IMG/VR virus record: IMGVR_UViG_3300009481_000120 | Coordinates: 1 to 22,427 of that record | Reading direction: 5' to 3' (one strand) | Origin: a virus | Length of the DNA stretch: 22,427 nt | Shown: in pieces, positions 536-18,017 of the stretch | Layout of the letters: each line of letters begins with the position of its first letter | How positions within the stretch are numbered: position 1 is the first letter of the stretch | Notes under the pieces: model-generated | Seen by the model: the letters and a program-made list of their open reading frames with translations, nothing else | What the model was told of the DNA's origin: nothing | Database searches by the model: none | Program-made: the position numbers and the translations under genes

Positions 536-1132
536 ATGAATCTTGCAGCAAATAGAAAAAGAGCTGTACTTGCTCCTTTGTTATTCGGTTCTCTTGGAGC
601 TGGATTTGTTGATACAGTTGCTCACGACGAATTAGATTATGTCGTCGATAAATACAAGTCATGGGATAGTGAATATAAAAAGGTAGCTGATCAGTGGCCT
701 AGGGTAGCCAGTGCTTACGATCATCTCGTAAGTCAAGGGCCATTCAGCATTATGGATGGTTACGGGATTTTAAATTTCTTAAAAGGGAGTAAAGCAGTAG
801 ATCTTAATTCCTTGACGAACGAAATGTTTCAGGAAGATCCCAGCTTACGCCACATGGCGGCTGCTACTGATATCAGTCAGAAATTAGGAGATGAAGAGAG
901 GCTTGCAATTCAATATATATTCCAAAAAGAATTGGAACTGATGAGCCAAGAAAGGTTGGCTGAAATGATGGATCCAGAAGCTGATTACAGTTCTGGAAGA
1001 GTCGTAGCAGCAGCGGAAGCAGGAGAAGGCACATCACCTATTCCTGCATTAATAGGAGGCTTAACAGGAGGAACTGGAGCTGCCCTTGGTTACGCAGCAG
1101 GAAACTACTTAAGAAATCGTAGAACCGTATGA
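536..1132 (+). CDS. Unknown protein between terminase and portal, Gly-rich C-terminal hydrophobic segment
   Basis: This 198-residue protein is not recognised. The N-terminal stretch (about residues 9-25) is hydrophobic and could be a membrane or packing helix. The middle is mixed charged and helical. The C-terminus (about 165-192) is rich in Gly and Ala, with small residues spaced like a glycine zipper, and ends in basic residues (N-R-R-T-V). The ATG lies 4 bases after the terL stop, and the last four bases (ATGA) overlap the portal start, so it is almost certainly cotranslated with both. Its position suggests a role in head assembly or packaging, but nothing in the sequence proves that. A membrane-associated protein is an alternative. 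Confidence 0.6.
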   Translation: MNLAANRKRAVLAPLLFGSLGAGFVDTVAHDELDYVVDKYKSWDSEYKKVADQWPRVASAYDHLVSQGPFSIMDGYGILNFLKGSKAVDLNSLTNEMFQEDPSLRHMAAATDISQKLGDEERLAIQYIFQKELELMSQERLAEMMDPEADYSSGRVVAAAEAGEGTSPIPALIGGLTGGTGAALGYAAGNYLRNRRTV

Positions 1133-3345
1133 GCGCACCAACTTCCGAGAGATTTAAACAGATACTTCAAGCTGCACGGAAACGTGATGGCATGAGTGGC
1201 ACTGACACAATGCTTGTCAATAGCCATTTAGCTCAGATGAAGCTTTTTATGCTTCGTCAAGGATTGGAATTCTTCCCCACTCAAGACACTTTCGGTTTCA
1301 GAAAGATGTTCTTGGCTCAGTTAGTCGAAGAGAATGAAATTGATACACGATTAGAAGGAATTGTTGATGACTTCTTAATTGACGGTAAAGGACTCTTTTA
1401 CTTCAGACCTGTAGGCGATTCCTACAGAATTATGTGGTTTAGCAAAGATAATTATCGTGCTTATTATGATTCCTCATCACAGCTTGAGGAGATCGAATTA
1501 ATTTATACCTTCTCTGTACGTTCAGGATTAGGAGGTTTAGCAACTCCAACCTCAGAGAATGGAAGTGAGAGATGGGTGAAACTACAAGTAAGGCGTGACA
1601 CGATTAAAGAGTCAATAACGACTGAACGTCCGTCATTCGAACATGGGGTAGGCAATAGTTACTCTTGGAGTCCTAATCAAACAAGAACACTTACGAATAG
1701 TCTTGGTTTCATTCCAGCAGTTGAATCATTCAACACGATGAAATCAACTGGCATGGATTCATCAGGTGATTTCGACTGGTTGGCAGAACAAATAGTTTTA
1801 CATGATGATCTTGTAAAAAATATTAGAACCAATATTCACTTCTTTGGTAATCCAACATTAGTTTCCAGCAGACCAAAGCATGATTTAGTTGAATCTGGAG
1901 ATGGAGATCAATTACGTCCAACAATAAGTTCACAAGCTGGTTTCTATTCAACAAATAGACCATCTACAAGGTTGAGTGAGCCTAGTGGAGGTGGTGGTAG
2001 TGGAATGAAGGTTCCGAGAGTTATTGCAAACGTTGAGCCAACTGATAGGGCTGTTTACTTAACTCCAGATGCGGTTTCAGGAGATCAGAATTTATATGCA
2101 AGACAATACAGAGAAGAATTAAGAACAGCTCTTGGCGGTGTTGATGAATTAGGAATCAGCTCAGGAGCAACTGCTTATGAAATCAAGTCGTTATATGGAC
2201 GTGCAGCTACAACCGCAACTCGTAGATGTAAGGGATTATTGACGTATGGATTGTGCAAATTATTTGGATTAATTATTTATCACGAAGAAAAAATCTTCCG
2301 AGATTCATTCGCAGCTTCTATAGGACTTGAGAAGCCTATGGTTCCTATTCAGGAAGAATTAGAGAATCCAGAAGAGTATCCATTATTGCTCGAAGCTTTT
2401 CAACAAGCACAAATTGCATTCGATACTGAGCTAGACAATAGAATCAGGGAAGCGGTACAAAATACCGAGCTTCCTCCCGGTGTTGTCGGTCTAATCCCCG
2501 ACGGCAATAGAAAAGTAGAATGGAGGTGGAAGGGTCCAGTCTTTGAAGACGGAACCGAAGATATACTGAATTCAAGTATCGTTGTTCGCAACTTACAAGA
2601 ACTCGGTGTAAACAGCATTGAAGCGTTGCGATATCTCTTCCCAGACAAAACGGATGAAGAGCGCAGTGCCATGTTGAGTGGTTATCCCTTCAGGATGGCC
2701 CAAGCAACACAACAAAGTATTGGTCAGTTCTTGTCGTTAATAAACGACATGAGAGCGACCCCACATCCGCAAGATCCAAGTCTGCCTTTACTTGCAGACC
2801 CACGATTGGACTTAACGCCTTATGTATATCGGGCACTCGAATTTTTATCAAAAGAATTGACTTATGCAGGACAGTATTCAGACGACTCAGCAGGTAGTGA
2901 ACCAAGCACCCTCGATACCATCGAGCGAGCCCGTGCCACAGCAGGCTTACCAACCAACACAGGTCCAGAGCGACCAAGTTTCGTACCAGACTCCTTCGGC
3001 TCCACAGGCACCGACTCCACAGGTGGCGGCACCACAGGTTCAGGAGGCGAATCCATGGCAGGAGGCGTTCCACAGACTGAGCGACTCACTGAGCGCAACG
3101 CAGAACTCCCAACCGCAGGCAGCTTACTCAACTCCGACCCCACAACAGCCGGAGACAACCAGCTATCCTTCAGCGACACAGAGCTACCAAGCAGCTCCAT
3201 CCGCTTCGGGGATGCAGACTTATCTGCCCCAAGCAACACCGGCGTACTCCCCGACCCAACAGGTGCAGGCGCAGAGCTCGAATCAGCAAGACAACGCAGT
3301 CAGTCAAGACGGGTATCTAGGAGCAGTAAGCGACGAAAGTCTTGA
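1129..3345 (+). CDS. Portal protein with long disordered C-terminal extension
   Basis: This 738-residue protein is a probable portal, the dodecameric ring at the capsid vertex through which DNA is packaged. Support is its place directly after terL, its length, and its texture: an alpha/beta N-terminal half, then a long helical part (about residues 325-400) with R-Q-Y-R-E-E-L and E-I-K-S-L-Y-G-R. A scaffold-like gene and a capsid gene follow downstream. Residues 1 to about 578 would already be a normal-sized portal. The last 160 residues are low-complexity, rich in Ser, Thr, Gly, Pro and Asp, and end in a strongly basic tail (S-K-R-R-K-S). That tail is encoded by DNA also read in another frame by the next gene. 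Codons there often end in C, unlike the rest of the gene. The start overlaps the previous stop (ATGA). Confidence 0.72.
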   Translation: MSAPTSERFKQILQAARKRDGMSGTDTMLVNSHLAQMKLFMLRQGLEFFPTQDTFGFRKMFLAQLVEENEIDTRLEGIVDDFLIDGKGLFYFRPVGDSYRIMWFSKDNYRAYYDSSSQLEEIELIYTFSVRSGLGGLATPTSENGSERWVKLQVRRDTIKESITTERPSFEHGVGNSYSWSPNQTRTLTNSLGFIPAVESFNTMKSTGMDSSGDFDWLAEQIVLHDDLVKNIRTNIHFFGNPTLVSSRPKHDLVESGDGDQLRPTISSQAGFYSTNRPSTRLSEPSGGGGSGMKVPRVIANVEPTDRAVYLTPDAVSGDQNLYARQYREELRTALGGVDELGISSGATAYEIKSLYGRAATTATRRCKGLLTYGLCKLFGLIIYHEEKIFRDSFAASIGLEKPMVPIQEELENPEEYPLLLEAFQQAQIAFDTELDNRIREAVQNTELPPGVVGLIPDGNRKVEWRWKGPVFEDGTEDILNSSIVVRNLQELGVNSIEALRYLFPDKTDEERSAMLSGYPFRMAQATQQSIGQFLSLINDMRATPHPQDPSLPLLADPRLDLTPYVYRALEFLSKELTYAGQYSDDSAGSEPSTLDTIERARATAGLPTNTGPERPSFVPDSFGSTGTDSTGGGTTGSGGESMAGGVPQTERLTERNAELPTAGSLLNSDPTTAGDNQLSFSDTELPSSSIRFGDADLSAPSNTGVLPDPTGAGAELESARQRSQSRRVSRSSKRRKS

Positions 3346-3925
3346 AGTAATTCAGCACTTCGGAGCAGAAGCACCAGCACTACTTAATAGATATGCATGC
3401 GTAGTTGAAGATGCATTAATAAATCAGGCTCAGGAGACAGCTAAGTCTTTACAACAGGTTGAGACACTTACTCAGTCAGTAGAAGGCGCTAAAAAGGTAG
3501 TTAAGGCAGCAGCAGAAGACAACGCTGCTTATCATGTCATGCTGACAAATCCTGACATGTTGTCAGAGTACGTCAACGACTTCTTTGGGCCAAACGGACC
3601 ACATCCAGTAGAGCTACCTCAAGATCGTCTAGCTGCGGAAGTTGCAGCAAATGAAGCTCGCACTCAGCAAGCAACATTTACACCAACTCCACAAGTACCA
3701 GCACAGACTTCACAGGCAGCTCCAAAGCAGGAAGCAGCAAAGCAACCAACTTTCCAGCGTCCTCAGATGGATATGCCATCACCGGGAACACAAGCTACTA
3801 AGCAAGGTGACTTCTGGGCGGCATTCTCTAACTTGAGCGATAAGAACCCAGCAGCAGCATGGCAGGTATTAAGTCAAGCTTCTCCTGAGCAGCTAAGAAG
3901 TAAAGTGTTAGTGTCCGAAGAGTAG
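2864..3925 (+). CDS. Scaffold-like head assembly protein, first 160 codons overprinted on the portal gene
   Basis: This 353-residue protein sits where a capsid scaffold is expected. Residues 1-155 are almost entirely Gln, Pro, Ala, Ser and Thr. Residues about 160-250 are helical and charged, with Q-Q-V-E-T-L-T-Q-S-V-E-G-A-K-K like a coiled coil, then N-D-F-F-G-P-N-G-P. A second Gln/Pro/Ala linker follows, and the C-terminus (F-W-A-A-F-S-N-L-S-D onward) looks like a short capsid-binding helix. A helical core with disordered flanks is typical of scaffolds. In this frame a TGA lies 6 bases before the ATG at 2864, so no earlier start exists. The ribosome site there is weak (AGAA). A later ATG at 3212 (residue 117), preceded by CGGGG, is possible but would leave most of the open frame unexplained. 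The first 482 bases lie within the portal gene, shifted by +1. Confidence 0.62.
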   Translation: MQDSIQTTQQVVNQAPSIPSSEPVPQQAYQPTQVQSDQVSYQTPSAPQAPTPQVAAPQVQEANPWQEAFHRLSDSLSATQNSQPQAAYSTPTPQQPETTSYPSATQSYQAAPSASGMQTYLPQATPAYSPTQQVQAQSSNQQDNAVSQDGYLGAVSDESLEVIQHFGAEAPALLNRYACVVEDALINQAQETAKSLQQVETLTQSVEGAKKVVKAAAEDNAAYHVMLTNPDMLSEYVNDFFGPNGPHPVELPQDRLAAEVAANEARTQQATFTPTPQVPAQTSQAAPKQEAAKQPTFQRPQMDMPSPGTQATKQGDFWAAFSNLSDKNPAAAWQVLSQASPEQLRSKVLVSEE

Positions 3926-4410: not shown

Positions 4411-5178
4411 ATGAGTTATTACGACAGACGATTTGCAGGAGGGGATGAGTCCTTCCTACAACCTTTCGCAGAGGCAATGGGAAGCATTCCATTTATTCCT
4501 TATCGTGAAGGTGCAGATCCATTAACAGAATTCCCTATAAGAAATATCAGAGGGACATCAGCAAGTTCATGGGGAAATTATGGTGATTTTATAAGAGGTA
4601 AACAAAGAGAATTAGATGTAATAGAACAGGAAGCTGGAGGAAGGTGGACGAGAGACCCTGTGGACCCAGTAGATCCTGTAGATCCTGTAGACCCAGTGGA
4701 TCCAGTTGACCCAGTCGATCCAGTCGATCCGATTGATCCTGAGAAGAAAGCAGCGCAGGATAAATGGAGAAAGATTTTTGCTAATCACATAGAAGAAGGA
4801 AATAGGAAAGGTAGATCAGAAATAGACAGTATGGATTCGGCTGTTCGCTGGTCTAGAACAATGACTCCAGAAGAGAATAGAGAATATAAATGGGCTTTCG
4901 AGGATACAACAAATGCTCCTGACTGGAAGAAATGGGGAGGAGGCAACAAGATGGGCTCAGGGGGAGCAAAAATCAATGCCGATAGAACATCAGGAGAAAA
5001 AAGTGGCCCCGGACTAGGTTTCCATGTTGGTCAAGCGGTAAGGGGAGTAAAGGCAAGATTTAGCGATACTCAAGGCAGAGGTATTAAGACTGGTGCAGAT
5101 GGTTATGGTTATAGCAATCACAGTAGAAAACATAGTTATAACACTCACGGAGTAGGAGAAAGAGGAGCGGCATTCTAA
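4411..5178 (+). CDS. Unknown hydrophilic protein with a (Asp-Pro-Val)n rod
   Basis: This 255-residue protein is not recognised. The N-terminal 80 residues look partly folded (M-S-Y-Y-D-R-R-F-A-G-G-D). Residues 82-110 are eight D-P-V triplets, one D-P-I and a final D-P, an extended, stiff spacer. Then comes a charged helical region (about 112-160), and a Gly-, Arg- and His-rich C-terminus ending G-E-R-G-A-A-F. The Ser/Gly/Arg-rich tail resembles in style the end of the protein at 15984-18017, which also closes with an aromatic residue. The start is supported by AGAG just upstream and lies behind a terminator, so it may need its own promoter or read-through. A role as a virion or spike component fits the neighbourhood but is inference. 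Confidence 0.6.
   Translation: MSYYDRRFAGGDESFLQPFAEAMGSIPFIPYREGADPLTEFPIRNIRGTSASSWGNYGDFIRGKQRELDVIEQEAGGRWTRDPVDPVDPVDPVDPVDPVDPVDPVDPIDPEKKAAQDKWRKIFANHIEEGNRKGRSEIDSMDSAVRWSRTMTPEENREYKWAFEDTTNAPDWKKWGGGNKMGSGGAKINADRTSGEKSGPGLGFHVGQAVRGVKARFSDTQGRGIKTGADGYGYSNHSRKHSYNTHGVGERGAAF
4654..4740 (+). repeat. In-frame 9-base repeat encoding (Asp-Pro-Val)n
   Basis: Nine 9-base units of the form GAY-CCN-GTN (the last reads ATT in place of GTN), plus a final GAT-CCT. Third positions vary freely (GTG, GTA, GTT, GTC; CCT, CCA, CCG), so the peptide pattern is kept while the DNA has diverged. This argues for an old repeat rather than recent slippage. Confidence 0.9.
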
Positions 5179-5294: not shown

Positions 5295-6386
5295 ATGACT
5301 ACATCATCATTAGGAAGCAAGAGCTTCTTAAAGGGGTGGGACGAGCTGACGACTTGGGTAACTTCAACAAACAATCGAATTTATGTCGGTTGGTTTGGAG
5401 TCCTAATGATTCCTTGTCTCCTTGCAGCAGTAAGTTGCTTTATCATTGCATTTATAGCTGCTCCGCCTGTTGATATCGACGGCATCCGTGAGCCAGTAGC
5501 TGGTTCATTTTTATATGGCAACAACATTATTTCTGGTGCTGTTGTACCTTCTAGTAACGCTATCGGCTTACACTTCTACCCCATATGGGAAGCGGCGACG
5601 TTAGACGAATGGCTTTATAACGGTGGTCCATATCAATTAGTTGTATTTCACTTTTTAATAGGAATATCTGCATACATGGGAAGACAGTGGGAGCTGTCAT
5701 ACCGTCTAGGCATGCGTCCTTGGATCTGTGTTGCTTATTCAGCACCAGTATCTGCTGCATTCGCTGTATTCCTTGTATATCCATTTGGTCAGGGATCATT
5801 CTCTGATGGAATGCCTTTAGGAATATCTGGAACATTTAATTTCATGTTCGTATTCCAAGCTGAGCACAATATCCTCATGCATCCATTCCACATGGCAGGT
5901 GTGGCAGGCATGTTTGGTGGTGCTTTGTTTAGTGCTATGCATGGTTCATTGGTTACATCTTCACTTATTCGTGAAACCACAGGTCTGACTTCTCAGAATT
6001 ATGGTTACAAATTCGGACAAGAAGAAGAGACTTATAACATCGTTGCAGCACATGGATATTTTGGACGACTAATCTTCCAATACGCTTCATTTAATAACTC
6101 CAGAAGTCTTCACTTCTTCCTAGCAAGCTGGCCTGTTATATGTGTCTGGCTTACAAGTATGGGGATAAGTACCATGGCTTTCAACTTAAATGGCTTCAAC
6201 TTTAATCAGTCTGTCGTAGACTATGAAGGTAAAGTCATCCCAACATGGGGAGACGTATTAAATAGAGCAAACCTCGGAATGGAAGTAATGCATGAGCGAA
6301 ATGCTCATAACTTCCCATTAGATCTAGCTTCAATAGAATCTGATGCATCATATGATATTGCTTTAACAGCACCTTCAGTTGGTTAA
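5295..6386 (+). CDS. psbA: Photosystem II D1 protein
   Basis: This 363-residue protein is a full-length D1, the reaction-centre subunit that binds the primary pigments, the plastoquinone QB and the manganese cluster in the thylakoid membrane. Numbering is one higher than the usual cyanobacterial D1. Visible key residues are Tyr162 (TyrZ), Asp171, Glu190 and His191 (Mn cluster side), His199 and His216 (P680 and iron sites), Ser265 (QB site), His273 (iron), and His333, Glu334, His338, Asp343 and Ala345 (Mn cluster). After Ala345 there is an 18-residue extension that the host protease CtpA would remove. The five-helix core is intact. The N-terminus (residues 5-20) and S-A-Y-M-G instead of the usual F-C-Y-M-G show it is a phage-type divergent copy. 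Phage D1 is known to replace host D1 during infection. It lies between virion-type genes. Confidence 0.98.
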
Positions 6387-7077: not shown

Positions 7078-8170
7078 AGGAATAGAAGTTGAATCATATT
7101 TAGACCCACAAGGAGTGCCAACTATTTGCACAGGTTTAACCAAGTACACGAATGGTGATCCAGTTCGTATGGGTGATGTATGTTTTGAAAGCATATGTAC
7201 GGAATATACAAAAGAGCAAATAGAACGAGATATCCTACCTGAATTATCAAAAATTCCGGGTTGGGATAATCTTGGACCTAATCGCCAAGCAGCATTAATT
7301 AGCTTTGCTTGGAATATGTCTATTGATTTTTTCGAGAAATCAGAATTCGAGAATTTAAGAGAAGTATTAAAGGAAGGAGCGATACATCCAGAAGCGTATG
7401 AAGATGTTCCTTACATCCTTGGTCTATTCACAAAATCTTATGGAGAGCAATTGCCGGGATTGATGTACAGGAGAGAAATTGAATCTAATGAATGGAGGAA
7501 AGAATCAATCATACCAATACATTTAAAAGCTTCTCAAGAAACATACTTAAAGAAGGCTCCGATTAATCATTTTCAGTTATCAGAATCTGGAAAACAATTC
7601 GTTGAAGTTGATGAAGAATTATATGTTTCACGAATAGAGGAAATACCAAGAGATAACCATAGTTGGATCACATTAGTAGGAAGTGGTGAAAAGTGGATCA
7701 TCAATCAGACTCATTGGAGAGAAAGTATTGCTAACAACTTCATCATCAAAAAAGAAGAGAAAGTGAATTGGCATGTATTAGAAGATCGAGTAGGTAAGTA
7801 CGCCACCGTAGGAGAGATATTGCAATACGATCCTCGACGTGCCCCTCTAGAAGGCAGTGAAGACGAAATCAACCTATTACGACTTGTAGAACAATTCGAC
7901 AGCATTAGAGAGGCTTGGGGGGCTCCTATAGGAATACTTGGTGCATATAGACCAGAGGAGAAGGTAAAAGATAATTATCACTCCAAAGGAATGGCTCTTG
8001 ATATATATCCAGTGCAAGATGACTTGGTTGAGTTCAGTCGATGGTTATCAAGAAGATGGACAGGAGGTTTCCTTCCCAATAAAGGGAAAAATTATTTGCA
8101 TATTGACATCAGAAAGAATGGTGCTTTTTACACCAGACCTCAACAGTCTTTAAAATCTTTCGCTATTTGA
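7025..8170 (+). CDS. Modular endolysin: GH24 muramidase, SH3-like middle, M15-type peptidase
   Basis: This 381-residue enzyme should degrade peptidoglycan at the end of infection. Residues 1-160 match the GH24 (T4/lambda-type) lysozyme pattern: Glu18 in R-F-E-G, Asp27 in Y-L-D-P and Thr33 in P-T-I-C-T-G keep the E-x8-D-x5-T spacing of the catalytic triad. Residues about 165-235 (T-Y-L-K-K-A-P-I through H-W-R-E) look like an SH3-type wall-binding or linker domain. Residues about 285-381 match a Peptidase M15 fold, with metal ligands His319 and Asp326 in H-S-K-G-M-A-L-D and His359 in L-H-I-D. So it probably cuts both a sugar bond and a peptide bond. The start at 7025 overlaps the previous gene by 53 bases but is needed for a normal GH24 N-terminus. 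The last 31 bases overlap the convergent gene at 8140. Confidence 0.85.
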   Translation: MTHPLTIGKAATLIERFEGIEVESYLDPQGVPTICTGLTKYTNGDPVRMGDVCFESICTEYTKEQIERDILPELSKIPGWDNLGPNRQAALISFAWNMSIDFFEKSEFENLREVLKEGAIHPEAYEDVPYILGLFTKSYGEQLPGLMYRREIESNEWRKESIIPIHLKASQETYLKKAPINHFQLSESGKQFVEVDEELYVSRIEEIPRDNHSWITLVGSGEKWIINQTHWRESIANNFIIKKEEKVNWHVLEDRVGKYATVGEILQYDPRRAPLEGSEDEINLLRLVEQFDSIREAWGAPIGILGAYRPEEKVKDNYHSKGMALDIYPVQDDLVEFSRWLSRRWTGGFLPNKGKNYLHIDIRKNGAFYTRPQQSLKSFAI

Positions 8171-8688
8171 GAACCCACTTTCGATCCTTGATCCATTCCG
8201 AGCATGGTGGCAGCACCAGCAAGAAATGGTCCTAGTACTGGCACTCCGGCGAGTGTAGGCGCAGCAGCCGTTCCAACTGCGGAACCGACGAGTCGGCCCT
8301 GCATCTTCCCAGCAGCTCCTGCTTCAATGCACTCGGCTTGTTTTGCCGTGAGTTCGGGACTGCGAATTGATGATTGATTAAATTCATCTCCAACAGGCGA
8401 TTGTTTGAGTATGTAAGTCTCTGATTTCCCTTTCCTAAATACGCCAGCAGGCTTTTCTATTGTTCTTAGCTCCTCTACTATTTTAGGATCATGCATCCGA
8501 TGCTTGATGTTATAAGACTGAGCTTTATCAGACTTAAAGACATCAATGCTGTAGGAAGAATATTGACTTACAGGTAAATTAAATTTCGGTAATCCACTCT
8601 GGTTACGCCCCAGCAAAGATATTGCTAATACATTGGAAGCTCCGAAAGCTAATCCAACTCCGACGAGGAGCCATCTCTGCTGGGACAT
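8140..8688 (-). CDS. Putative membrane protein with N-terminal anchor and glycine-zipper segment
   Basis: This 182-residue protein is not recognised by family. Residues 6-25 (L-L-V-G-V-G-L-A-F-G-A-S-N-V-L-A-I) form a hydrophobic anchor or uncleaved signal. The middle is soluble and charged. Residues about 122-172 are a Gly/Ala-rich hydrophobic pair of segments with G-x3-G spacings (G-R-L-V-G-S-A-V-G-T), like glycine-zipper membrane proteins. Two cysteines flank it (E-C-I-E and the terminal F-K-D-C). The ATG lies 3 bases after the stop of the upstream minus-strand gene, so they are co-transcribed. Its 3' end overlaps the endolysin tail. A role in lysis (holin- or spanin-like) is possible because of the endolysin next to it, but a virion or DNA-injection membrane protein is equally likely. 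Confidence 0.55.
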   Translation of the reverse strand: MSQQRWLLVGVGLAFGASNVLAISLLGRNQSGLPKFNLPVSQYSSYSIDVFKSDKAQSYNIKHRMHDPKIVEELRTIEKPAGVFRKGKSETYILKQSPVGDEFNQSSIRSPELTAKQAECIEAGAAGKMQGRLVGSAVGTAAAPTLAGVPVLGPFLAGAATMLGMDQGSKVGSQIAKDFKDC

Positions 8689-8691
8689 AAT

Positions 8692-9114
8692 TTAGATCAC
8701 TTTAATTGCCATAGCTCCTTGGTTGAACTGAACAGTATCACCAAGTTGAACGTCAACAGACGTTGTAAGCTCTCCAGATGCTAGGAAGTTACCTGCCGTA
8801 GCTGCGTCCCAAATGCCAAAATGGGTGACAGTTGTTGGAGAGGAGTTTTGAGCACTTGTCGTAATTTGAGAGACAATTGCGTTTGTAATCTGATATCCAC
8901 CACCTGATGCTGAACTAACAGTACTGAATGAAGTACTTGCAATTGATGTTCGAGTACCAGAACCTTTAATAGAACTTGTTACATCGTTATTAGATCCAGC
9001 AACACCGGGATCTGCTGTATGCACTGAGACATATACGTTTGTGAGTGCATTAGGGAACGAAGAATTCTTTATCCAACCAAGAATCTTATTTGCAAGATAC
9101 GAGGAAAATGCCAT
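8692..9114 (-). CDS. Virion protein resembling Gp80-type phage tail proteins
   Basis: This 140-residue protein has the look of a small beta-rich phage structural family. It begins with M-A-F-S-S-Y-L-A-N-K-I-L-G-W, has V-Y-V-S-V-H-T-A-D-P-G in the first third, then a Ser/Thr/Gly-rich stretch. It closes with V-T-H-F-G-I-W-D-A-A-T-A-G-N-F-L, followed by a strand and G-D-T-V-Q-F-N-Q-G-A. I recall this order (YLANKIL... FTADPG... HFGI.DA..GG) from tail-associated proteins of many phages, some labelled Gp80-like. It probably sits on the tail or capsid surface. It is the second-last gene of the minus-strand block and is followed after 3 bases by the membrane protein. Confidence 0.65.
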   Translation of the reverse strand: MAFSSYLANKILGWIKNSSFPNALTNVYVSVHTADPGVAGSNNDVTSSIKGSGTRTSIASTSFSTVSSASGGGYQITNAIVSQITTSAQNSSPTTVTHFGIWDAATAGNFLASGELTTSVDVQLGDTVQFNQGAMAIKVI

Positions 9115-9157
9115 GCGAACTTCTACTTACTACTAGGGTTTTCTGTAGCTCTTACTT

Positions 9158-9167
9158 GTATTTTTAG
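9158..9167 (-). promoter_or_regulatory. Possible minus-strand promoter motif CTAAAAATAC
   Basis: Reading the minus strand, CTAAAAATAC lies about 44 bases before the ATG at 9114 in a 62-base gap. A near copy, CTAAAATAC, lies before the CP12-like gene (10122-10130). Both resemble the ATAAATA motifs elsewhere but are not exact. Confidence 0.22.
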
Positions 9168-9176
9168 AGGGTCTAA

Positions 9177-9968
9177 TTAGTACCCACCACCATACGGAGC
9201 TGTACTAGTAAGCGTAGCCATATTTGCACTTGAACCGCTGATGGTTCCACTTACTCTCCAATACATTTTAAGTCTTCCATAAGGAACCATTCGTCCAATG
9301 ATTGTTCCTTTCATTATTGTCAGGGTACCAGTCGATTCAGAAGTACCTAGAGCTGTACCACTGATTTCGTCTAGTTGGCTTAAAGGAGTCAGGGTAAGAC
9401 CATTCTCATTCACTCCTGAAGCTGTACCAAATAGCTTGACCAGACCAATACGACCAGTTAGCTCATTACGTCCAGTAGCCGTTCCATCTAGCAGTAGATA
9501 ACGAATGACTTGAAGACTTACGCTAAATGGCAATGCCTGCCACTGAGAGTTGCAAACAGTTAGGTAGTAAGTTCCTTTCGGTAGTTGTAAGTTGCTTTCT
9601 AAAACATCAGTATTAATAATTTCATTTTTGCAAGCAAAGCCATCTGGCTGGATCCTTATTTGATCTAAATGTTCGTTGAGCAATCCAAAAGATATATATT
9701 GATCTTCGTATTTGTTCAGTGAATTTTTAATAGCTCTTAAATCAGACTCTCCCGATGTGGTGACTTTGAAGTAAAGAGTATTCGTACCGACTTCAGACCC
9801 AACAGATCCTGTTAATGTTGTGTTCAGATTAAAGACTATACCAAGGTTCTTGGCTTTTGCAGGAGTATTATATTTGACATGTTCAGGTCTTAAGAATGAA
9901 GGTGATGATTTATCACTGCCCCCATAAGACTCTTTGATTTTGTTTATAGAGCCTGTTAAAGAAGTCAT
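9177..9968 (-). CDS. Repeat-containing probable virion protein
   Basis: This protein of about 263 residues is not assigned to a named family. The N-terminal 165 residues look like a beta-sandwich domain (residues about 37-155, ending G-T-Y-Y-L-T-V-C-N-S). The rest is a loose repeat of 20-24 residues built on G-T-A-x-G-x-x-E: D-G-T-A-T-G-R-N-E-L-T-G, then F-G-T-A-S-G-V-N-E-N-G, then S-G-T-A-L-G-T-S-E-S-T-G, then G-T-I-S-G-S-S-A-N. Such short beta repeats are usual in fibre or surface proteins. I chose the ATG at 9968, five bases after the CP12-like stop. A GTG at 9980, directly after an in-frame stop, would add four residues. Two cysteines occur, at about 115 and 143. Confidence 0.6.
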   Translation of the reverse strand: MTSLTGSINKIKESYGGSDKSSPSFLRPEHVKYNTPAKAKNLGIVFNLNTTLTGSVGSEVGTNTLYFKVTTSGESDLRAIKNSLNKYEDQYISFGLLNEHLDQIRIQPDGFACKNEIINTDVLESNLQLPKGTYYLTVCNSQWQALPFSVSLQVIRYLLLDGTATGRNELTGRIGLVKLFGTASGVNENGLTLTPLSQLDEISGTALGTSESTGTLTIMKGTIIGRMVPYGRLKMYWRVSGTISGSSANMATLTSTAPYGGGY

Positions 9969-9973
9969 AAGGA

Positions 9974-10096
9974 TTAGCACTCATATAACCGACACTCCTC
10001 ATCCGACGGATTTTCTTCGCAATACTCTAAGTATCGTCGTCGTTGTGGAGAGAGGATTGGTGAGTCTAGGTCGTCTTGGTCAAGAGAGTCGCTCAT
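9974..10096 (-). CDS. 40-residue CP12-like protein (C-terminal GAPDH-binding module only)
   Basis: This short frame reads M-S-D-S-L-D-Q-D-D-L and ends EYCEENPSDEECRLYEC. That tail matches the C-terminal module of CP12 (E-Y-C-x-x-N-P-x-x-x-E-C-R-x-Y-D/E), including the C-x8-C pair (Cys26, Cys35). In CP12 that pair forms a redox-controlled disulfide loop, and this end of the protein binds the Calvin-cycle enzyme GAPDH. The upstream CP12 part that binds phosphoribulokinase (A-W-D-x-V-E-E-L) is missing. An arginine run (R-R-R-Y-L) precedes the motif, and an extra Cys is the last residue. A stop codon lies directly before the ATG in frame, so no longer form exists. The next gene starts 5 bases after the stop, as in an operon. 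Full-length cp12 is a known cyanophage auxiliary gene; a module-only form is an inference from the motif. Confidence 0.68.
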   Translation of the reverse strand: MSDSLDQDDLDSPILSPQRRRYLEYCEENPSDEECRLYEC

Positions 10097-10264
10097 TCAA
10101 CATGGGAACCCTTGTATAGACGTATTTTAGTAATTCTTATGAGTCAGGAGCCCTACACGTTGGGATACGCCTAGGGATCAGTTTAAAGTTCTAAGAAACT
10201 ACAAAAATTAGAACTCCTAACCCATGCAACCCCTGACGTAGTTCTTCTTCGGGGCAAGCTTAAT
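10097..10264. other. 168-base non-coding gap with an 8-base inverted repeat
   Basis: This is the largest gap between genes in the window. I find no plausible frame in it on either strand. It holds a perfect inverted repeat, AGTTCTAA (10187-10194) and TTAGAACT (10208-10215), with a 13-base loop and no clear T run. On the minus strand CTAAAATAC (10122-10130) could be a promoter for the CP12-like gene. I saw no tRNA cloverleaf and could not recognise an intron core. Confidence 0.5.
10122..10130 (-). promoter_or_regulatory. Possible promoter motif CTAAAATAC before the CP12-like gene
   Basis: Reading the minus strand, this AT-rich string lies 25 bases before the ATG at 10096. It resembles the CTAAAAATAC before the gene at 9114 and loosely the ATAAATA elements on the + strand. 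No matching -35 box was identified. Confidence 0.25.
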
Positions 10265-10855
10265 CTATCTGAATTTTGATAGTTGTGGCCTAAGTTTCTT
10301 TTTCATATTGATGTGAATCAAAGGTCTGATCAAATTAAACAGCTCATGTAATGCATCTTTCTTGAAACTGAGCTGGATGATCGTTAGATGGTTTCGATGA
10401 ATTTTGGCTGGAATACTTAAATCGTTAAACCATGATTCCAAAGCTTCGTATTCCCTTTCTGAATATTTACCCCTAATAGAACCCTTCTTTCCAGTAATTC
10501 TTCCTTGATCAATCCATAATGCAGCAGCTCCTTTTAATCCAGTCGTATTCAAGACCTCTCTGGATATCATTCGCTTGTCTCTGGGATATAACAGTTCATA
10601 AGCTCGCCAAAGCATATCCCCTTGAAACCTGAATCGTTCCATATCGTAGAAACCATCAGTTGGCACACGATCCCAAACGTAATCAACAGGTCCATCGTGA
10701 TACTGACGTAATTTCCTGAGTTGATGATCTAAATAAGTTCGATCAATTTCTAATCTTTTAATTTCAAGCCATGGCCTTCTCCTTCTCCCCTTCAGGCTTA
10801 TTGATCCCTTTCCCAAGCTGTAACTCAGTGCGTGAGCTACGAATTGAGCTGACAT
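10265..10855 (-). CDS. Second LAGLIDADG-type endonuclease-like protein, degenerate first motif
   Basis: This 196-residue protein appears related to the gene just upstream. The two N-termini align from Met without gaps: M-S-A-Q-F-V-A-H-A-L-S-Y-S-L-G-K-G-S-I against M-D-A-A-D-V-R-G-L-L-G-L-L-V-G-D-G-S-L. Both also share L-L-Y-P and then a G-x2-A/G-A-A-x-L-W segment (here G-L-K-G-A-A-A-L-W-I-D-Q-G). The acidic residue that would end the first LAGLIDADG helix is Lys16 here, so cleavage at that site is doubtful, while an Asp is kept in the second motif. It could be an inactive copy, a partner subunit or a DNA-binding maturase-like protein. The start overlaps the upstream gene by 92 bases and is supported by the N-terminal alignment. 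Confidence 0.55.
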   Translation of the reverse strand: MSAQFVAHALSYSLGKGSISLKGRRRRPWLEIKRLEIDRTYLDHQLRKLRQYHDGPVDYVWDRVPTDGFYDMERFRFQGDMLWRAYELLYPRDKRMISREVLNTTGLKGAAALWIDQGRITGKKGSIRGKYSEREYEALESWFNDLSIPAKIHRNHLTIIQLSFKKDALHELFNLIRPLIHINMKKKLRPQLSKFR

Positions 10856-11456
10856 CCCATGACTCCTTGTTGAAGAGGTGTATTCGACTTTTTGGTGCGT
10901 AATGCTTTAAAACTTCTCTGATCTTTTGAGACTGTTCAGGATCGAAGAAGATTCGAGGTCTTACATATGCCTCATCGATTGATCCATCTGCTCCTGTCAG
11001 CATGGTTAGCCAGCCACAGATAAGTTGAGCCTCCTCAAAGGTTGAGCCAACCCTTCCAAGCAAAACAGACCCATCTTTCATCGGTTTATTACCTTCAGCC
11101 CATAACCACGCAGCAGCTTGAGCACCAAGCAAATCAAGCGTAGTTTTCGTTAATTGCTTTTCTCCTATTGGATAAAGGAGATTGTAAACAGGACGCAATT
11201 TGTTGGTTGAGACCCTAAATCTTAGTATTTGGGTTGATTTACCACTATTACGAGGCTTAGTTTTATAGGGAACAATTTTGGCCCTCGTGAAAATAAATTG
11301 CTTAAATTCGTCAACTTTTTCTTCTAAAAATGCAGACTCAGTTGCACCGGCTGTGAGAGTTAATTGGATATAACCTCCGCTAGGAGTGCGATATGGGACA
11401 AGACTCCCATCTCCAACCAGTAATCCTAAGAGCCCCCTTACATCAGCGGCATCCAA
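10764..11456 (-). CDS. LAGLIDADG-type homing endonuclease
   Basis: This 230-residue protein looks like a free-standing two-motif LAGLIDADG endonuclease, a mobile gene that cuts DNA at a long target site. Residues 8-19 (G-L-L-G-L-L-V-G-D-G-S-L) fit the first LAGLIDADG helix with catalytic Asp16. Residues about 112-123 (A-Q-A-A-A-W-L-W-A-E-G-N) fit the second, with Glu in place of Asp. The regions after each motif alternate strands and helices, as in the DNA-binding saddle. No splice-site or intein features are visible, so it seems intron-free. It lies directly upstream of and divergent from the capsid gene, a usual type of location for phage homing genes. It is the first gene of the minus-strand block. 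Confidence 0.65.
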   Translation of the reverse strand: MDAADVRGLLGLLVGDGSLVPYRTPSGGYIQLTLTAGATESAFLEEKVDEFKQFIFTRAKIVPYKTKPRNSGKSTQILRFRVSTNKLRPVYNLLYPIGEKQLTKTTLDLLGAQAAAWLWAEGNKPMKDGSVLLGRVGSTFEEAQLICGWLTMLTGADGSIDEAYVRPRIFFDPEQSQKIREVLKHYAPKSRIHLFNKESWDVSSIRSSRTELQLGKGINKPEGEKEKAMA

Positions 11457-11546: not shown

Positions 11547-12695
11547 ATGTGGATTGATAATGATTTTCCAAAACTGTTAGGAGCCGAACTCTACCGTCCT
11601 CATCCCGGTTATATCATCGAGATGGCTGTAGAGCCTGTAGTGGTACACGATTTTTCAAAACAGCCCGGACAAACCGTGCAGTTGGATCGTTATCGCTTCT
11701 GGGGAAATCCCGGTAATAAGGATTCAAGAGAGCGTACTGCTGATCAAACTCTTGGAACGGCTTCAAGCAGAAATATTGTTAAAGACAAGGTATTAGTAAA
11801 CCTTAAAGAGTACACAGGTCCAGCGGATCCAACAGATGCTACTTCTCCTTCAACCTTTAAGGTTGCTCGTGAGACATTGCTTACAGCACAGCGTCTTTTA
11901 TTGGATACTGGTAACCTCAACGTTTTTCATCAGTCAATCGGTTCGTTGACCCTTTTGGATGATTACAGACGTTGGAGAGACAGAGTATTCGCAGACGAGC
12001 TATTCAAGGCAGAAGCAAACGGCAACTCTTCATCTAGCACTGGTGGTTATTACTATCCCGGTGGTGATGCAAAGGCTGCTGCTGCTCCTTTCTTCACATA
12101 TGGTGTAGGTGTCTCAGCTAAGTTCGACGTAAAGACTGACTTACTGCAAGTTGTAAAAGACATGCGTAAGCGTAACGTTCCAACTTTTAGCGACGGCTAC
12201 TACAGATGTATTGCTGATCCAACAGCAATGATGCATCTTCGTCAGAACGACGCATTTAGAGAGATTGCACGTTATGCAGGCAACGGCATGGTTAATCCTA
12301 TGTCTCCTGAGCAAGCTCCTAACGCCAACTTCTTCCAAGGAATGGGACCAGCTTACGGTCAAGCTGGATTCGTTGCTGGACAACCAGTGATGCCAAGCGG
12401 CTTCCTCTTTGAGGGAGTAAGATGGTTCGAATCAACCAACCTTCCAGAGAAATCTATCAGTGCAAGCATCGCTGCTGCACCGGGTGGAGCTGGAGCTGCG
12501 ACATATACAGCAGCGCCAATGTTGTTCTTTGGACCACAGGCAGTTGGTGTTGGTATTGGTGGCAACAATGCCCAGATATTATTAAACAATAATGATGACT
12601 TTTCACGGTTTATCATTATGATCTGGTCACTGTTTGCAGGTTTTGAAATCCTTAATAAGGACTTCATTACTGTTGCTTACTCATTCGTATATTGA
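11547..12695 (+). CDS. Major capsid protein
   Basis: This 382-residue protein is the best candidate for the shell subunit, probably HK97-fold. Length is typical. The N-terminal part has Y-R-P-H-P-G-Y-I-I-E, then a loop-like region with R-T-A-D-Q-T-L-G-T-A-S-S-R-N, resembling the N4-gp56-like capsid family. The middle (residues about 195-245) has D-M-R-K-R-N-V-P-T-F and a Y-Y-R-C-I-A-D-P-T strand, typical of the capsid A/P-domain junction. The C-terminus is beta-rich and ends Y-S-F-V-Y. It is immediately followed by a protein with the strongest ribosome site in the window, as for capsid decoration or partner proteins. GGAG at 11531 serves as its own ribosome site. It is separated from the scaffold by more than 7 kb, which is unusual. 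Assignment is by features and context, not search. Confidence 0.75.
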   Translation: MWIDNDFPKLLGAELYRPHPGYIIEMAVEPVVVHDFSKQPGQTVQLDRYRFWGNPGNKDSRERTADQTLGTASSRNIVKDKVLVNLKEYTGPADPTDATSPSTFKVARETLLTAQRLLLDTGNLNVFHQSIGSLTLLDDYRRWRDRVFADELFKAEANGNSSSSTGGYYYPGGDAKAAAAPFFTYGVGVSAKFDVKTDLLQVVKDMRKRNVPTFSDGYYRCIADPTAMMHLRQNDAFREIARYAGNGMVNPMSPEQAPNANFFQGMGPAYGQAGFVAGQPVMPSGFLFEGVRWFESTNLPEKSISASIAAAPGGAGAATYTAAPMLFFGPQAVGVGIGGNNAQILLNNNDDFSRFIIMIWSLFAGFEILNKDFITVAYSFVY

Positions 12696-15983: not shown

Positions 15984-18017
15984 ATGCCTTCACTTGCTAG
16001 TACAAGCGCATACCTAGATCAGCTTTATAAAGACAAGTTTGGTAGACAGCCAGACGCAGAAGGGAAAGCGTATTGGCAAGGTCAAATAGATTCAGGTAAG
16101 GCAACTGCTGCAAGTGTCGCAGCAGCTTTCGACGCATCATCAGAAGCTAAAGATCGTGTATCTAAAGGAGTAGCTCAGGGTGTAGCTGATACAGCATCAT
16201 TTGAAGCGGCAAAGGCAGCTAATGCAGCGAAAGCACCAGCACCTGCACCTGCACCTGCACCTGCACCTTCTCCAGCACCAGCCCCATATAACGCAGCAGA
16301 GGCATATAACAATACAGTTAACTCAACAGTTGCAGCGTTTAATGCGCCAGCACCTGCACCAAGTCCAGCTCCAGCTCCAGCACCTTCTCCAGCTCCAGCA
16401 CCGGATGATGACGATGGCCCTGTCTACACTCTCCCTTATATAGATCCAGAGAGTGAGCAAGGTAAAAGACTGGCTATCAATGATATCTATAGAGATGTCT
16501 TAGAACGAAATAGTGATGAAGGTGGAGAAGATTATTGGTATAAGGAACTGGAATCAGGCAGGCAAACTCTTGATGATATTAGATCTAACATCGAAGCATC
16601 AAGTGAAAAAGATAAGTTAGCGGACAATAAAGCATTTATTGAACAGCAATATAACCAAGGATTAGATAGAGGTACTGGAGACAATATCGATGATGCTGCT
16701 GATCCTTATGGCGGTGGAATGGGATATTGGCTCAAAGATTTAGCTACTGGTCAATCTCGTGATGACGTTGCAGCAAATATCCGTAGATCCGATGAGTTCT
16801 CTACACAAGCCAGCGATTACTTAGAAGGTCTGTACGAGAATATTCTTGAACGTGATCCTGATACTGAAGGATTGGATTACTGGAAACAGTCGTTAATCGA
16901 TGGAACTCAAACAAGAGAAGACGTAGAAAACAACTTCAATATCAGTGACGAGAAATGGCTGGGTGATATCTATAAAAATGAATTAGGTAGGAATCTTGGG
17001 GAGGAAGGTAGGGACTATTGGTTGAATGATATAAACAACAAGGGACAATCTCGTGAAGATGTTTTAGCCAATATAAAACGATCTGATGAATACGCTTGTG
17101 CTCAAAGTGGTGGAACATGGGATGGAAGTAGTTGTACTCAGGCACCAACCGCATGTCCAGCAGGTCAGGTCAGGAATGCCAATGGGGATTGCGAGGATAC
17201 AGATCTTCCTATCGTTTGCGGTGCAGGTCAACAGTTAAATAGTGCAGGAACTGGATGTATAGATATTCCTGAAATTCCAGATGATGAATGCCCAACGGGT
17301 CAAAGGAGGAATGCTGCTGGTAATTGCGAAACCGATCCCAATACTTTGCCATGTGGAGAAGGAGAAACCAGAGGAGCTGATGGCGTATGCCGACCAGTAG
17401 ATACAACTCCAGCTCCTTGCCCATCAGGTCAAACAAGAAACGCTCAAGGACAGTGCGTAGGATCAGATGCTCCGGCTCCGGGTCCAGCTCCATGTCCTAA
17501 TGGTCAAACAAGAAATCCAGATGGATCATGCCCAGAAGCTGGAACTTACATGGGAGAAGATCCACAGGACAAAATAGATACTGAGGGTAATGCACCCGGA
17601 ACTTGGATGGGAAACCAAGAATCAGATGACGACTTCAATCGGCTATATAACGACAAGCAAGCAGAGATGGTCAGGCTATACGGTGGAGATGGTCAAGGAG
17701 GAACAGCATCTAATGATCGGTATGACCAATTAAAGTCTGATTACGACGATGCGAGAAGAGAAGCTGATTCATATATCAATGCAAATCGGGATGAAGAATT
17801 ATCAAAACTAAGAAGAGGTATTACTGTCGGAGGATTCCCCGGAAGCAGACGTAATGATCTGAGGTCAGGAGGAACTGCTTATAGTGATCGGTCTAGAAAG
17901 AGAAGTCGTGTCACTGCTGGCCCAAGAGTCAAGAATGATCGACCATACGCAGCAAGAGGCGTTAGGGGTGGATATTCATCAGGAAGTACTTATTTCGATA
18001 ACGCTAGTAGCTTTTAA
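15984..18017 (+). CDS. Multi-domain virion protein: five DUF4214-like domains and six Cys repeats
   Basis: This 677-residue protein has a modular, extended build. DUF4214-like modules (L-Y-K-D-K-F-G-R-x-P-D-x-E-G-x-x-Y-W) lie at about residues 9-57, 165-213, 217-272, 278-326 and 327-370, each with an aromatic Y-W and most ending near S-D-E-F/Y. Two Ala-Pro-rich linkers (84-101 and 121-140) separate the first from the rest. After C-A-Q-S-G-G-T-W-D-G-S-S-C come six repeats of C-x2-G-Q/E-x-x-R-N-x-x-G-x-C (residues 391-516), which probably form small disulfide-bonded knobs. The C-terminus is Arg/Gly/Ser-rich. DUF4214 occurs in cyanobacterial surface proteins and in cyanophage structural proteins. 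A fibre, spike or adhesin is the best reading. No signal peptide is present. Confidence 0.68.
   Translation: MPSLASTSAYLDQLYKDKFGRQPDAEGKAYWQGQIDSGKATAASVAAAFDASSEAKDRVSKGVAQGVADTASFEAAKAANAAKAPAPAPAPAPAPSPAPAPYNAAEAYNNTVNSTVAAFNAPAPAPSPAPAPAPSPAPAPDDDDGPVYTLPYIDPESEQGKRLAINDIYRDVLERNSDEGGEDYWYKELESGRQTLDDIRSNIEASSEKDKLADNKAFIEQQYNQGLDRGTGDNIDDAADPYGGGMGYWLKDLATGQSRDDVAANIRRSDEFSTQASDYLEGLYENILERDPDTEGLDYWKQSLIDGTQTREDVENNFNISDEKWLGDIYKNELGRNLGEEGRDYWLNDINNKGQSREDVLANIKRSDEYACAQSGGTWDGSSCTQAPTACPAGQVRNANGDCEDTDLPIVCGAGQQLNSAGTGCIDIPEIPDDECPTGQRRNAAGNCETDPNTLPCGEGETRGADGVCRPVDTTPAPCPSGQTRNAQGQCVGSDAPAPGPAPCPNGQTRNPDGSCPEAGTYMGEDPQDKIDTEGNAPGTWMGNQESDDDFNRLYNDKQAEMVRLYGGDGQGGTASNDRYDQLKSDYDDARREADSYINANRDEELSKLRRGITVGGFPGSRRNDLRSGGTAYSDRSRKRSRVTAGPRVKNDRPYAARGVRGGYSSGSTYFDNASSF
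16233..16403 (+). repeat. Two Ala-Pro linker repeats inside the DUF4214 protein gene
   Basis: Hexanucleotide-like GCACCT and CCAGCT units encode Ala-Pro dipeptides at 16233-16286 and 16344-16403, separated by a unique stretch with N-A-A-E-A-Y-N-N-T. The first tract is nearly uniform (GCACCT repeated), the second has more synonymous variation, so they probably arose by slippage at different times. Confidence 0.8.
17154..17532 (+). repeat. Six Cys-rich peptide repeats (C-x2-G-Q-x-R-N...G-x-C)
   Basis: Six in-frame copies of a 13-15-residue unit begin with Cys-Pro or Cys-Gly and end with Gly-x-Cys, spaced by Pro/Thr/Asp linkers of variable length. The DNA of the copies differs clearly, so the pattern is kept at the protein level. 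Confidence 0.78.

Follow-up and report, generated by a model that had tools for sequence, protein, structure and literature searches.

A long +1 overlap between the portal gene and a scaffold-like gene in viruses of cyanobacteria

The DNA considered here, called the window throughout, is the whole 22,427-nt stretch of an IMG/VR virus record that carries psbA; the closest isolated relative of the virus is Synechococcus phage S-EIV1. On its plus strand lies a portal ORF of 738 aa (1129-3345, frame 0), and a scaffold-like ORF of 353 aa (2864-3925) runs in the +1 frame. The two share the 482 bases from 2864 to 3345, portal stop included, as had been stated in a preliminary description of this DNA made from its letters and reading frames; the same description put the portal without its tail at about 578 residues, and 578 residues (the portal core, 1129-2863) do precede the overlap. 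The ATG of the scaffold-like ORF (2864-2866) follows a weak Shine-Dalgarno-like AAAAGAA (2850-2856) and a TGA in the scaffold frame (2858-2860), six bases before the start, which had also been noticed at the outset and which bars any earlier beginning. The portal's own stop, a TGA at 3343-3345, falls inside Leu-Glu codons of the scaffold frame, at the start of a conserved ESLEV..HFG domain. Within the overlap, alignments single out a well-conserved stretch at 3055-3129, which reads SMAGGV..ER.A.LP..GSLL in the portal and encodes a helix, NPWQ.AF..LS.SLS, in the scaffold. Both products are of low complexity here and the portal ends basic, again as first described. The portal tail is rich in G, S, P and A, with its basic stretch over the last 20 residues (3283-3342, RRVSR..RRKS, by alignment and charge count), and the scaffold part is rich in Q, A, S and P with one conserved helix.

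Judged by its predicted fold, the 738-aa ORF product is a portal protein. It matches phrog_20475 (head and packaging; E 2.4e-186), the best Foldseek matches of its AlphaFold model are portals (E down to 1.7e-09), and VIA-align places residues 5-474 of the model on a solved portal with a Z of 15.7 over 298 residues at an rmsd of 4.7. The mean confidence of the model is low (58.9), and the tail beyond residue 578 is mostly low-confidence prediction with no regular structure. The portal also has a position near terminase, since the annotated terminase gene of S-EIV1 is found some 0.9 kb upstream.

The 353-aa product is termed scaffold-like by its gene position and predicted helices, an assignment less secure than that of the portal. 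Its gene directly follows the portal gene and lies upstream of the major head protein gene (MCP, phrog_1357), which is found at 11547 in the window; in L365, a locus from a Desmonostoc MAG, phrog_1357 stands at 9286, about 550 nt past the scaffold. The AlphaFold model (mf7dab1e79852) has a disordered N-terminus rich in Q, P, A and S, a short helix at residues 64-77, a long helix at 170-228 and C-terminal helices at about 317-350. No solved scaffold matched the protein, either by structure (Foldseek against the PDB) or by sequence (PDB profiles), and PDB profile searches with the portal and scaffold proteins alike gave nothing meaningful. The model's only significant match in BFVD is a 133-aa entry, equal in length to the S-EIV1 protein AHV82225.1.

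IMG/VR was scanned for the portal and the scaffold, which gave several hundred loci, 346 of them containing the end of the portal core. Thirty-three of these were too close to a contig end. An early portal stop in L223, 9 nt from a contig end, was set aside. The overlap is found in 298 loci, is 443-638 nt long (median 500) and is always +1; because many loci derive from the same contigs, the number to use is that of the distinct overlap sequences, 212. In 13 of the remaining 15 loci the overlap is present and the contig ends inside the scaffold, and the last two, L196 and L281, are one contig in which the portal is broken by indels. The 298 loci span two marine clades, here called window-like and far marine, and the freshwater S-EIV1 clade, and in these three clades the median net charge of the last 20 portal residues is +6 to +8. 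All ten loci from bacterial or archaeal genome bins (L356-L365) have the overlap too. In four of them (L356-L359), contigs from this phage group ended up in MAGs with a Euryarchaeota label, probably through contamination. The most distant cases come from Nostocaceae: in L365 the portal is 36% identical to that of the window and the overlap is 344 nt, and in two further genomes of the same family, L369 and L370, the portals are 38% and 30% identical and the overlaps 341 and 353 nt, all of them +1. The L370 portal is without the basic C-terminal patch. For one of these three portal-scaffold pairs the contig (G558) is 6.4 Mb long, a size that points to prophages in these Nostocaceae genomes.

An outgroup without the overlap was sought in 386 genomes of the phylum and in 218 genomes of L365's family, and only overlapping cases came up; among the loci examined there is no intact relative without it. 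Related phages with an early portal stop and no tail, which would have spoken against the overlap as originally described, were likewise looked for, and none occurs among the intact relatives. On this sampling, the overlap is widespread in a large group of cyanobacteria-infecting viruses.

Measured against the portal reading frame, the scaffold start holds its position, following closely on a stop in its own frame that in most relatives lies 6 nt before an ATG or 9 nt before a GTG. The 212 sequences divide into 124 with ATG and 88 with GTG; AAGGAG stands 7 nt before the ATG in 53 of them and 10 nt before the GTG in 84. A perfect AAGGAG is typical of the S-EIV1-like and far marine clades. The Shine-Dalgarno is weak in the window's clade, being GAG only, or AAAAGAA in the window itself. 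Shorter overlaps, measured from a distant first ATG, were considered for L083, L113 and the far marine clade and rejected, because the upstream site there holds a GTG that is conserved. Together, a start codon fixed in place, a stop just ahead of it in its own frame and the Shine-Dalgarno lead us to infer that the scaffold is initiated independently and internally, not through a +1 frameshift fusion.

To estimate selection in the window-like marine, far marine and S-EIV1-like clades, each difference between paired sequences was sorted by what it does to the portal and the scaffold frame, following the OLGenie approach with codon bootstraps. Under portal-based alignment the portal-frame dN/dS in the overlap is 0.42 (0.35-0.52), 0.48 (0.31-0.73) and 0.62 (0.47-0.79) in these clades, respectively, and the scaffold-frame values are 0.33, 0.36 and 0.32, with 95% intervals all below 1. 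As controls, a fictitious scaffold frame laid over the portal core gave 0.90-0.99, and a fictitious portal frame in the scaffold-only part gave 1.5-2.2. The portal core itself, at about 0.08, is under stronger constraint than the portal frame in the overlap. Alignment of the S-EIV1-like clade on the scaffold frame makes its portal-frame ratio borderline, 0.77 (0.57-1.00), so that portal constraint appears weakest in that clade, and a single Nostocales pair, with too few differences to carry weight, gave ratios of 0.70/0.68. Within the window's clade the scaffold-frame ratio is 0.44 (CI 0.31-0.57) over 2867-3038 and 0.21 (CI 0.14-0.30) over 3039-3211. A comparison of substitutions across relatives had been proposed as a check on dual selection, and its outcome is purifying selection in both frames in three clades; by these ratios the overlap has the character of a dual-coding gene pair.

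The likelihood of such an arrangement arising by chance was gauged by fixing the residues of one frame and drawing synonymous codons at random according to phage usage. With the scaffold residues fixed the portal frame stays open in at most about 0.2% of trials on average (0/400 for the window), and with the portal residues fixed the scaffold frame stays open in about 5-10% (1.5% for the window). An open frame by chance is unlikely in either case even once, and far more so across clades.

Very probably, then, this is a genuine overlapping gene pair, with the portal extending to 3345, the scaffold beginning at its own internal start at 2864, and both kept by selection. It might be argued instead that function in the overlap belongs to the scaffold frame alone and that the portal tail is read-through, tolerated but without a role, as its predicted disorder and a ratio (0.42-0.62) well short of the constraint on the core would allow. 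Against this, the portal-frame ratio under portal-based alignment is significantly below 1 in all three clades, compared with 1.5-2.2 outside the overlap; the portal frame has conserved motifs and a basic C-terminus and would seldom be open by chance given the scaffold residues; and no intact relative has an early portal stop. We consider a tail without any role improbable. Conservation of a nucleotide-level signal, such as an RNA structure or packaging site, in place of two proteins might be read from the low diversity of portal third positions, which is 0.35 in the overlap compared with 0.58 in the core (scaffold third positions have 0.36 in the overlap vs. 0.58 beyond it). However, the differences are biased by their amino-acid effect in both frames, and indels leave both frames open across the 212 sequences, so that a signal of this kind is extremely improbable as the explanation.

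Two other alternatives concern the way in which the scaffold is begun. If it started at 3212 or later, the +1 frame upstream would be open by accident; an ATG does exist at 3212, and some relatives have no ATG until far downstream. Those relatives nevertheless have the conserved upstream GTG, mostly with AAGGAG, the S-EIV1-like phages carry AAGGAG and ATG at the homologous site, and the strong scaffold-frame constraint within 2867-3211, well upstream of 3212, argues against a start there. The start at 2864 has thus withstood the challenge, and a downstream one is very improbable. The preliminary description had also raised a programmed +1 shift that fuses portal to scaffold, in keeping with the +1 offset and the long overlap, and one contig, L196, does contain a fused ORF. 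The portal of that contig is itself broken by indels, however, and relatives 97-99% identical to it have the normal overlap, for which reason L196/L281 was rejected as a natural fusion. The scaffold begins at a conserved start of its own. Most marine phages have the portal stop in ESLE codons, S-EIV1 has it in AVLNNYA, and with contexts differing in this way between clades no shared slip site was seen by inspection. The programmed shift is accordingly abandoned as very unlikely indeed.

As to which frame came first, the C-rich third positions of the portal frame had been taken to mean that the scaffold frame is the older and that the portal tail was gained by read-through into it. The C-richness is real (0.41 in the overlap vs. 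0.16 in the portal core), but composition, codon usage and the spread of motifs do not support that order. In the overlap neither frame has typical third positions, and codon-usage correlations are low, with the portal frame slightly higher in all three clades (0.29, 0.06 and 0.10, vs. 0.13, -0.15 and 0.08 for the scaffold). The portal-tail motif is alignable even with the Nostocaceae loci; the L365 scaffold has no significant match to the scaffold profile. Weak as these signs are, they would not favor a scaffold-first history.

For comparison, S-EIV1 (KJ410740) has the same gene order, a homologous portal (46% identity) and scaffold, and a +1 overlap with AAGGAG and ATG, its overlap differing in being longer, at 554 nt. 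Its scaffold ORF (L082, KJ410740.1, 7751-8728) encodes 325 aa; GenBank annotates only the last 133 of these (8327-8728, AHV82225.1), which makes the overlap invisible in the S-EIV1 record. The C and Nu3 genes of phage lambda offer a likeness in that the scaffold protein is initiated within the coding sequence of a different head gene; there, however, the start is in the same frame and the shared residues are identical, whereas the pair described here uses two frames and yields unrelated products. Long out-of-frame overlaps in which both products are functional occur in phages at Rz/Rz1 and at phiX174 A/B and D/E, but these involve genes for lysis or replication, or else ssDNA genomes of very small size, and we know of none among them that joins portal and scaffold. 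A survey of virus reference genomes gives a median of 14 nt (IQR 8-26) for +1 same-strand overlaps and finds overlaps in DNA viruses to be mostly short (PMC8903798), which makes a head-gene overlap of 340-640 nt, kept down to 30% portal identity, exceptional. Literature searches, with the S-EIV1 genome paper outside their reach, found no account of a portal-scaffold overlap. Overprinting as such is known; we found no earlier description of an ancient overlap of such length joining portal and scaffold genes.

With the overlapping gene pair as the preferred reading, the last 160 or so residues of the portal would form a largely disordered tail whose C-terminus is basic, and the scaffold-like protein would be translated in the +1 frame from the internal start at 2864, its N-terminal 160 residues being encoded on the same bases. 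With internal initiation, the supply of the many scaffold copies would not be tied to that of the 12 portal copies. Both flexible segments may do their work within the procapsid, the place of contact between portal and scaffold in other phages; in P22 procapsids the scaffold is docked on the portal, whose C-terminal barrel is disordered at that stage and ordered in the virion (PMC12005531), a likeness at the protein level only. Since both segments would face the procapsid interior, a role for the portal tail and the scaffold N-terminal segment in portal-scaffold or DNA contact is plausible. More doubtful, though worth stating, is the possibility that the overlap makes portal and scaffold a locked pair, inherited as a unit, with the disordered segments touching during procapsid nucleation and recombination being unable to part them, and that this lock predates the divergence of cyanophages with unicellular hosts from those with filamentous ones. 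What the disordered ends of portal and scaffold do in the procapsid becomes testable, existing annotation is seen to shorten the scaffold, and more than 200 natural sequences are at hand for the study of two proteins evolving on one stretch of DNA.

The surroundings of the pair hold several further features. Directly after the scaffold comes a gene for a cyanophage outer-membrane-like beta barrel (PF24653, 3986-4348), and then an ORF (4411-5178) with a tandem repeat at 4653-4741 that encodes (Asp-Pro-Val)n; the weak match of this ORF to the phiKZ gp35-type decoration protein is confined to the repeat. The psbA gene (photosystem II D1, 5295-6386), about 80% identical in DNA to psbA of large Prochlorococcus phages, sits between the scaffold and major head protein genes. 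A block of minus-strand ORFs (8140-11456) separates a lysozyme/peptidase gene from the major head protein and includes a GP4 gp80-like fibre protein (8692-9114) and a LAGLIDADG endonuclease (10764-11456). Farther along, 15984-18017 encodes a 677-aa protein with five DUF4214 stretches and with proline/alanine-rich tandem repeats near 16232-16402.
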